Source: Methanosarcinaceae archaeon
GTDB taxonomy: Archaea; Halobacteriota; Methanosarcinia; Methanosarcinales; Methanosarcinaceae
Assembly (NCBI GenBank): GCA_020055655.1
Contig: JAIPUR010000009.1
Span: 1 to 64,000, forward strand
DNA: 64,000 bases
Direction: 5' to 3'
Shown here: in pieces, positions 27,464-30,205 of the stretch
How positions within the stretch are numbered: the first letter of the stretch is position 1
Layout: every line of letters begins with the position of its first letter
The notes under the pieces: generated by a model
Told to the model about the DNA's origin: nothing
The model's input: the letters and a program-made list of their open reading frames with translations, nothing else
Database searches by the model: none
Translations under genes and position numbers: made by a program

Positions 27464-28747
27464 TTACATATTCAACAGGTACGGTTCGTCTCCGCCATGC
27501 CAGCTTATACGCGGCCTCATACGAATAATATGTGCGGATTCAGTAGTATCATCCACAATAAATGCAATTCCCCTTTCATTCCCCATTTTTCTGATAGATT
27601 CTACAAAATCCTCTCTCATATATGTAGGCCTTACAGATCCAAGTGCCTGAATATCATCCTGCGAAGTTAGTCGGTGGCATATAATGATATCTGACTGAGA
27701 AAGAACATCGGGATGCAAGGAAGATGGACGCTGAGTAGCGAGCACAAGTGATAGGCCAGGTTGCCTGCCCTGTCGCAACCATTCATTGATCAATAGGCCA
27801 GATGCCAGAGTATCTTCCCCATTTGGAACGAACTGATGCGCTTCGTCTATGAACATCCAGACCAGTGGAATTCCTTTTTTCACATCTTTATCGCCCATAA
27901 TAGTCCTCTCATATGAGCGACGTGTATCCAGGCTTTTATGATACAGCTCCTTTGCAAAGAAAGCAACAACTCCTGCCCGTACTGCATGGTCCCTAATTGT
28001 GCTAACGTCAATTACAGAAGCTGAGCCACTTTTCACCATACTTGAAACATCAATACCCTTTTCAGAATAAACACCCCAGGAGCGTGCTGTTGCAAAATAA
28101 TTTGTTGCCGCCCCTTTTGAAACAACATCAGAGCGTTCATCTTCAAGAATAGCATCTTCGACATCATCAAATGAAAAGTGTTTTTGAACTGCTCTTAAGT
28201 TCTCGATGATGCGCACTATCAGAACACCTGCTGGAGCCAGGGGGTCCACACTAAAAAGATGACACCATTCATAACCATCCATTTGAGAAATGGAGATCGA
28301 TATATTGGTCACATCAATATTTCTTTCAACATACTCATTCTCACTACCACTTGGAACAAAAATATCTACATCCTGCCCCTGTGGATCCAGTCCCCATTTA
28401 GAAAGAGTTTCAGCCTGTAGGTTATTTGGTTTTTGTAGTGTCCAGAATATTCCCATGGTGTCAACTATGACTGATGCGACGTTAGATCTTATTTTAGAAG
28501 GCAATCGTGCCAACTCTTCGATCAACACACCCATAGTGTAAGATTTACCATAGCCACGTTTTCCGGCTATAAGGATCGCATGTGGTCGGGATGCATCCAG
28601 TTCAATATGAGATCCTTCGGAATTATCAAGTGCAAGATACCGACCAAGATACAAGCAAGCCTCATTTCTTCCTTCAAGGCTTCCCAGAACATATTGATTT
28701 TGAGAGACACCTGCATTGAAGTCATCTGACATATAGTCCATGGGCAT
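27464..28747 (-). CDS. HerA-like (DUF87) ATPase
   Basis: A 427-residue FtsK/HerA-superfamily ATPase. The N-terminal beta-barrel region contains CLYLGRYLALD, Walker A is GKRGYGKS (62-69), Walker B is WMFIDEAHQF, followed by LLINEWLRQGRQPGLSLVLATQRPSSL, the characteristic sensor region. HerA-type proteins are hexameric DNA translocases for end resection or defence. No NurA nuclease, Mre11 or Rad50 gene lies next to it, so the partner is unknown. It is a single-gene unit. Confidence 0.85.
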   Translation of the reverse strand: MPMDYMSDDFNAGVSQNQYVLGSLEGRNEACLYLGRYLALDNSEGSHIELDASRPHAILIAGKRGYGKSYTMGVLIEELARLPSKIRSNVASVIVDTMGIFWTLQKPNNLQAETLSKWGLDPQGQDVDIFVPSGSENEYVERNIDVTNISISISQMDGYEWCHLFSVDPLAPAGVLIVRIIENLRAVQKHFSFDDVEDAILEDERSDVVSKGAATNYFATARSWGVYSEKGIDVSSMVKSGSASVIDVSTIRDHAVRAGVVAFFAKELYHKSLDTRRSYERTIMGDKDVKKGIPLVWMFIDEAHQFVPNGEDTLASGLLINEWLRQGRQPGLSLVLATQRPSSLHPDVLSQSDIIICHRLTSQDDIQALGSVRPTYMREDFVESIRKMGNERGIAFIVDDTTESAHIIRMRPRISWHGGDEPYLLNM

Positions 28748-28861
28748 TGGGCGTTGCTACATTATATAATACTTTCTTCTTAGCTATAAATTATAAAAAT
28801 TTAGCTAAATAATATTTGACTAGGAAGAGTGAAAAATATGAATAAAATATCCCAGTAATCC

Positions 28862-28869
28862 TTATATAA
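28862..28869 (+). promoter_or_regulatory. TATA box for the candidate small RNA
   Basis: TTATATAA lies about 25 bases before the point where the RNA structure begins (28889-28893), the normal archaeal distance. No open reading frame begins downstream within 250 bases on the same strand, so it is best explained by an RNA gene. Confidence 0.6.
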
Positions 28870-28888
28870 TACAATGTATATGTAGGTG

Positions 28889-28995
28889 CGCCAGGAATCC
28901 CACTATAGAATCAGCCCCTCTGACATACAGATTCTATTTTTATACCCCAACTTCACCCAACAATCATTATGTGGGATTCCTCTTTCCTTTTAACA
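28889..28995 (+). ncRNA. Candidate structured small RNA, about 100 nt
   Basis: A closed RNA-like structure. The ends pair in a perfect 11-base stem: AGGAATCCCAC (28893-28903) with GTGGGATTCCT (28971-28981). Inside, an eight-base hairpin ATAGAATC (28905-28912) with GATTCTAT (28930-28937) has the loop AGCCCCTCTGACATACA, and a C-rich unpaired strand ACCCCAACTTCACCC follows. A TATA box lies 25 bases upstream and a pyrimidine tract (TCTTTCCTTTT) ends the unit. The two exposed C-rich stretches could pair with ribosome binding sites. It matches no RNA family I can name. Confidence 0.6.
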
Positions 28996-29077
28996 TGACA
29001 AAAGTGATTAACCAGCAGTTTTTCAATTTTTGATGAAGATATGAGAAATCGCAGATCAAAGAAGTGGAGAATATCTG

Positions 29078-29125
29078 AAAAATAAAAAGGAAGTAGCCAT
29101 GAAAAGTACATAGCGCTATTCATGG
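29078..29125 (-). terminator. Terminator of purP
   Basis: CCATGAA (29097-29103) pairs with TTCATGG (29119-29125) around a loop containing TAGCGCTA. In the minus direction the hairpin is followed by CTACTTCCTTTTTATTTTT. It begins 13 bases after the purP stop codon. Confidence 0.65.
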
Positions 29126-29137
29126 AGTTATTAAGTA

Positions 29138-30205
29138 TTATGACAGGATCTTCTCAAGCTGTTTAGAATCTATAGCATGCCTGATCTCTTGTGCAATGCG
29201 TTTTCCTGTGGAAAGTCCTGGCTCTACAAAGTCAGAATAAGGAGAACCACTTGGGTAGATATTAGTTCCTGCAACGATCCTTGCTGATATTTCAAATACC
29301 TTGATCTCGAGCTGATCTGTAAATACAGTCTCAAGACAGAAAGGACCGATCATTCCGCCGAAAAGTTTGATAGATTCTTCAACTACTCTGTCACCAAGCT
29401 CGAAGATAAGCGGCAAAAGAGATTCCCTTGCAACGAGCGGAACATTTCCTGTCACCACATATGTTGGGTGGATACCTGCCTCCTTCAGCTCTTTTGGTGA
29501 ACCAAGTCTGAATATCTCATCAGCATTTGATTCCACTCTGCGATCCATACTAAGCATTTGAAGTGCACCTTCACTTAGCTGGTATCCCCCTTCCTGAATT
29601 GGTGAATAGAAATAGTGAAGGTAATAACGTGTGCCGACCATGAATTCCTGAATGGTGTATTTCTCATTTGGATCTACATGTTCCTCGAATTCTTCCTGGT
29701 TCTTAGCAATAAAGAAACCACGTCCACCTTTAGCACCATGGTATTTCACCATGACCGGTCCATTGATATCTTCCGGTCTGATCTGCCTTGGCATGTGAAT
29801 TCCAGCACCTTCGAGCCATTCGCGCTCCATTTCCCTATCAGACTCCCATTCGAGAACTGATCTGTTTCCAAATGTAGGAACTGCAAGCTCAGCAAACTTC
29901 TTAATGCCCAGATATTCAACAAATGAGCCATGTGGAATTACAATTGCATTCTTAGCCACCAGTTCATCAACTATGTTTGGAATATCCTGATGACTATCGA
30001 CCACAATGAATTCATCGGGCCTTGCCATAGGAAAGGCATCATAGAACCGCGGGGGTTGCTTTACACAGATCCCTATGGTCTTGAAACCTTCCTTCCTTGC
30101 CCCATCAAAGATCTGAAGGCTGGAGTGAGAACATACGGTTGCAATACTGATATTGTCAAGATCATAGTTCCCTACAATTTCCATAATGTGTTCTTTTGTG
30201 ATCAT
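29138..30205 (-). CDS. purP: PurP, formate-dependent AICAR ligase
   Basis: A 355-residue ATP-grasp enzyme converting AICAR, formate and ATP to FAICAR, the archaeal replacement for the folate-dependent transformylase in purine synthesis. Seen: ISIATVCSHSSLQIFDGAR, KQPPRFYDAFPMARPDEFI, VIPHGSFVEYLGIKK, FGNRSVLEWESDREMEREWL and MVKYHGAKGGRGFFIAKN (ATP-grasp loop), and C-terminal FEISARIVAGTNIYPSGSPY. Full length. It is a single-gene unit ended by the hairpin terminator at about 29.1 kb, and divergent from the HTH protein. Confidence 0.95.
   Translation of the reverse strand: MITKEHIMEIVGNYDLDNISIATVCSHSSLQIFDGARKEGFKTIGICVKQPPRFYDAFPMARPDEFIVVDSHQDIPNIVDELVAKNAIVIPHGSFVEYLGIKKFAELAVPTFGNRSVLEWESDREMEREWLEGAGIHMPRQIRPEDINGPVMVKYHGAKGGRGFFIAKNQEEFEEHVDPNEKYTIQEFMVGTRYYLHYFYSPIQEGGYQLSEGALQMLSMDRRVESNADEIFRLGSPKELKEAGIHPTYVVTGNVPLVARESLLPLIFELGDRVVEESIKLFGGMIGPFCLETVFTDQLEIKVFEISARIVAGTNIYPSGSPYSDFVEPGLSTGKRIAQEIRHAIDSKQLEKILS

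Follow-up and report, generated by a model that had tools for sequence, protein, structure and literature searches.

The closest described systems are the intergenic sRNA154, sRNA41 and sRNA162 of Methanosarcina mazei (reviewed in PMC5867862), of which sRNA154 is reported to be a conserved, structured RNA and, like sRNA41, to mask ribosome binding sites (RBSs). For Methanolobus psychrophilus R15, a dRNA-seq study gives 195 intergenic sRNAs and treats nine conserved sRNAs, which have a cold box ahead of their promoters, as one set (PMC5378194). The window analysed here, a stretch of 64,000 nucleotides from a Methanosarcinaceae archaeon (contig JAIPUR010000009.1), carries at positions 28892-28982 of its + strand a conserved RNA element that, like the three M. 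mazei RNAs, is intergenic and comes from the same archaeal family. Whereas the cold-box sRNAs are portrayed as a set of nine, this element is present as a single copy per genome. To our knowledge, archaea have few structured sRNAs whose conservation extends past a single genus. We consider it highly probable that a small-RNA gene exists at this locus.

Conservation, folding and covariation of the RNA element

An earlier note on this DNA had proposed a stand-alone small RNA whose terminal stem is closed and whose C-rich stretches are exposed. Its conservation, the compensatory changes, the promoter and the evidence on the strand strongly support this proposal. The perfect 11-bp terminal stem (P1) that it described is indeed present, with a 5' arm AGGAATCCCAC at 28893-28903 and, as its exact reverse complement, a 3' arm GTGGGATTCCT at 28971-28981 (both + strand). 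For the 91-nt element (28892-28982) the folding energy is -21.8 kcal/mol, with z = -4.5, a value equalled by none of 200 shuffled sequences, and a longer stretch around it folds with z = -2.8. Because the window contains two perfect 11-bp inverted repeats with loops of 40-100 nt, the stem alone is unremarkable and structure alone is not decisive.

Conservation is what makes the window element real. A 301-base BLAST query found matches in 16 of 40 relatives, most of the longer ones covering only query positions 99-216, that is, the RNA and its immediate promoter, and covariance models identified 33 homologues of 84-115 nt (E ≤ 0.01), one per genome, among 186 genomes of the order. These belong to four genera: 23 of the 27 genomes of the window genus Methanolobus, four of g21 (which we take to be Methanomethylovorans), four of g24 and two of g12. 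Model R1 was built from 17 sequences and the broader R2 from 29. The window sequence, which was among the training sequences of both models, matches full length (model positions 1-103) with 64.3 bits in R1 (E 2.2e-13 in its own genome) and 64.4 bits in R2, the E-values of model-building members arising by construction. R1 detected the divergent copies of G021, G023, G005, G040, g21 and two genomes of g24, some of them weakly (E 0.4 for G040), before they entered R2; the copies of G010 and G015 were initially recognised by reading the syntenic locus.

The models gave no copy in g23 or g17, presumably Methanosarcina and Methanococcoides, respectively; in g23, no match reached E 0.5 with R2 or 0.1 with R1. 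Two genomes of the window genus, G011 and G012, have the neighbouring genes with no RNA between them; of the other two members of that genus in which no copy was found, one has a contig that stops soon after herA (G020) and the other is 70% complete (G013). Marginal matches in G087 and G075 lay inside genes, with the stem absent, and were rejected.

What we call the canonical form occurs in Methanolobus records named M. vulcani, M. bombayensis, M. profundi and M. psychrotolerans. Canonical copies share a pairwise identity of 0.94 within the RNA, against 0.69/0.73 upstream of it and 0.65 downstream. The RNA core contains 7% G and 31% C, against 17% G and 14% C upstream, and all copies are G-poor and C-rich; an equally skewed composition over 67 nt was met in 227 of 114,268 overlapping segments of a 400-kb stretch of one relative.

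An ungapped count inward from both ends finds P1 positions 2 to 6 and 9 paired throughout the 33 copies and detects double changes at positions 5 (A-U to U-G or U-A), 6 (A-U to G-C) and 9 (U-A to C-G). The 21 double-change cells compare with 7.4 in shuffles, none of 2000 of which scored as high. When the two-stem structure was evaluated on the model-fitted alignment of the 33 copies (A4), 92% of cells were paired, compared with 35-51% when slid, and no shuffle was as high on four of five measures; the ungapped count is nevertheless the cleaner test, since a model-fitted alignment leans to the structure. In the group formed by G021, G023, G005, G040, G015 and G010 the terminal stem is extended (GAGGAA..CCUGCAU/AUGCAGG..UUCCUC), and the GAGGAG/CUCCUC pairing of G010 is a compensatory change.

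The covariance check suggested for two stems upheld P1, with compensatory changes among the 33 genomes, and showed the inner hairpin to be lineage-specific. In the window copy this hairpin is as had been described, spanning 28905-28937 (+) with ATAGAATC (28905-28912) paired to GATTCTAT (28930-28937) over 8 bp around a C-rich 17-nt loop; relatives have another hairpin instead. Canonical species form UGAUGCAUU/AAUGUAUCA between two C-rich strands; the window copy has lost the 3' arm of that hairpin by deletion and has gained another, AUAGAAUC/GAUUCUAU, which encloses CCCCUC. By alignment, the CCCCUC element (CCCCTC in DNA, 28915-28920, +) lies in the apical loop of the window copy and in the 5' junction strand of canonical copies, and ACCCCAACUUCACCCAA (28944-28960, +) is the conserved unpaired 3' strand. 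Despite the hairpin swap, CCCCUC and ACCCC..UUCACCC persist in the window copy and its relatives, as expected if the C-rich elements are working parts.

Promoter, strand and gene neighbourhood

The TATA box and the downstream pyrimidine tract pointed out in the earlier note are both present. The end of the box CTTATATA (28861-28868, +) lies 23 nt upstream of the stem. All 33 homologues have a TATA-like box, at a distance of 21-28 nt from the stem (six of the 33 rows were read by eye, the script having chosen a neighbouring 8-mer). With the box-to-start distance of about 19-22 nt that the dRNA-seq study gives for M. psychrophilus (PMC5378194), transcription is predicted to start at 28888-28893 (+). 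The first 12 nt past the stem contain 59% T and 81% pyrimidine over the 33 copies, against 34% T further downstream; from this content the T-rich tract TTTCCTTTT (28983-28991, +) is the likely 3' end, and the predicted transcript would terminate within it.

The + strand is the working strand, given the near-fixed TATA distance in all copies, the pairing of the stem and the folding behaviour of the two strands. Stem position 7 is U-G in 14 copies, where the opposite strand would have C-A, and the + strand of a canonical copy folds with z -4.3 as against -0.2 for the - strand. The promoter region of some copies shows a further feature: in those of g24 (L059, L061, L245 and L259) the TATA box sits within an inverted repeat just ahead of the stem (GCACAACC..GGTTGTGC in L059, for instance), and CCTAC..GTAGG occupies a similar place in some Methanolobus. 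These repeats are possible operators.

Both neighbours in the window lie on the - strand, namely a gene for a HerA-like ATPase (DUF87; 27464-28747) and purP (formate-phosphoribosylaminoimidazolecarboxamide ligase; 29138-30205), so that the + strand from 28748 to 29137 is free of neighbouring genes and the RNA stands alone between them, as originally observed. The commonest order, found for most copies, is leuD, herA-like, RNA, FAD-dependent oxidoreductase (Pfam Pyr_redox_2) and purP. The RNA of Methanolobus and g21 is oriented divergently to the herA-like gene, and its 3' side faces the oxidoreductase or purP; in g12 and part of g24 the RNA adjoins the same oxidoreductase, followed by purP where the contig allows, and in G120 and G124 it comes after a gene for an MFS transporter, close to herA. 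The window lineage, G002 and G019 have kept the RNA although the oxidoreductase is gone from the locus. Vertical descent is the best account of the shared neighbourhood.

Two further observations concern the neighbouring genes. About 126-449 nt past the RNA at L060 (G080), a short ORF carries the C-terminal motif AGDRTGLSRDLVNSAATGRLAARGRLKI of the FAD oxidoreductase and is apparently a decayed remnant of it, beside an intact RNA. The HerA-like frame contains one in-frame TAG in G058, G057 and G020, which could reflect pyrrolysine read-through or gene decay.

Target searches and candidate functions

The RNA would be transcribed independently from its intergenic gene as a molecule of about 90-110 nt, starting at or just before the 10-12-bp stem and ending in the T-rich tract past it. 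With the start at the stem and the end directly behind it, the stem would close both ends of the RNA and probably protects them. Between its arms, C-rich and almost G-free single strands would be displayed, separated by one variable hairpin. CCCCUC and ACCCC..UUCACCC are the putative seeds, which may engage G-rich stretches of several mRNAs by short, imperfect pairing and thereby alter their translation or stability. Trans-acting regulation is most likely the function of the RNA, a reading to which we give most weight because the C-rich elements survive the change of the surrounding helix, and which also draws on the example of the M. mazei RNAs sRNA154 and sRNA41 (PMC5867862), an analogy being no test. 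Taken as a whole, the statement of an intergenic sRNA of this size that acts in trans through C-rich seeds appears to us somewhat more probable than its negation.

The more specific suggestion that the C-rich loops pair with RBSs gained no support from several tests, although such pairing may yet occur. BLAST over ten genomes revealed no antisense site that recurs over a length of at least about 14 nt, and a 19-nt wobble pattern allowing up to three mismatches matched essentially only the RNA gene itself. Against 338 RBS regions from 400 kb of one genome, the loops gave duplex energies no better than those of shuffled loops, and exact complements of both C-rich strands were absent from the viral sequences of IMG/VR. 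The exact 10-mer CAGAGGGGAA, complementary to the 5' seed, occurred at 45 non-self sites versus 13 for the reversed control in ten Methanolobus genomes; these sites lay mostly inside genes, the genes were unrelated, and the excess may reflect codon or SD composition. The corresponding 3'-seed 10-mer was not enriched (39 versus 58 for the control).

The target search proposed earlier accordingly yielded no conserved target. Its best candidate was the mRNA of an MscS-like channel (named from sequence), whose unusual RBS CAGAGGGG complements the 5' seed in G004 and G009, with close forms in G041, G019, G022 and G006. It was rejected because the match is confined to one subclade of six Methanolobus species, the other 17 orthologues, including that of the window, lacking it, and yet the 5' seed is invariant in canonical species. 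Also set aside were the 5' matches of ABC-permease and secreted-protein genes, seen in one genome each, and a 16-nt match recurring at one place that, read in one genome, lies in sense in the thermosome gene and is a coding coincidence with the window sequence.

The lack of a conserved complementary mRNA site in these searches also bears on the main rival reading, that the RNA acts by binding a protein, as scaffold, decoy or sponge, its G-free C-rich strands being the site of an RNA-binding protein. We regard this as possible, though not probable. About 60 nt that are mostly unpaired and nearly invariant in 14 species would suit such a role, but the strands vary much between subclades while staying C-rich, which would call for a loose motif.

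It is improbable that the element works in cis, be it in 3'-end or antisense control of the convergent oxidoreductase or purP, or as part of a - strand leader of the herA-like gene. Often a few bases separate the end of the RNA from the stop codon of the convergent oxidoreductase, a neighbour shared by several genera. Against a cis role, however, the RNA persists in the lineages named above that have lost the oxidoreductase, the G120 copy adjoins an unrelated gene, every copy has its TATA box on the + strand, and both the U-G pairs and the folding favour that strand.

A housekeeping guide RNA of the C/D or H/ACA type, directing rRNA modification, would likewise be small, intergenic and single copy. 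We consider this very improbable. A C/D guide is marked by a C box, a D box and a kink-turn, and no RUGAUGA C box was visible by eye in the aligned copies; nor does a conserved ACA lie past the stem. At gathering score, Rfam 15 detected three tRNAs and nothing else in the whole window, hence no match at the element, C/D models included; a relaxed threshold gave three weak, sub-gathering matches around it. The canonical fold, in which a wide, asymmetric bubble lies between the closing stem and a hairpin, recalls the 6S RNA that holds RNA polymerase. That RNA has a large central bubble within 160-200 nt, however, and we know of none from archaea; the present element has a length of only about 100 nt and a bubble that is one-sided in the window copy, which leaves a 6S-like role with very little likelihood. 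That the stretch encodes a small protein is scarcely credible: several canonical copies contain the open frame MYHTPNFTQTIIMRGSS, but indels break it in G008, G007 and the window, which has no such start, and structure is what is conserved.

Relation to described archaeal small RNAs

Judged from its sequence and predicted fold, the RNA represents a small-RNA family that is new and has no entry in Rfam; its general kind is that of archaeal intergenic sRNAs. A non-exhaustive literature search found no prior report of a conserved family with a described structure of this sort. G040 (3,072,769 bp), which we take to be M. psychrophilus R15, carries its homologue at 1876727-1876825 on the - strand. 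The RNA may be one of the 195 sRNAs that the R15 study gives for this strain, in which case its transcript may already have been detected there. If G040 is R15, published start-site data exist in a cultured species.

Across 33 genomes the RNA has a defined gene, a defined promoter and strand, and a stem backed by covariation. The natural losses in G011 and G012 are available for comparison, and the RNA provides a handle on RNA regulation in methylotrophic methanogens outside Methanosarcina. One may speculate, at low confidence, that it is the founding member of a class of archaeal sRNAs with sealed ends, in which internal helices are exchanged between lineages, G-free C-rich strands are kept and broad regulation is exerted through a protein or many mRNAs.

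As regards sRNA154, sRNA41 and sRNA162, the covariance models of the present RNA found no homologue in any of the Methanosarcina genomes searched. With archaeal intergenic regulatory sRNAs in general it shares an intergenic promoter of its own and a conserved non-coding structure.
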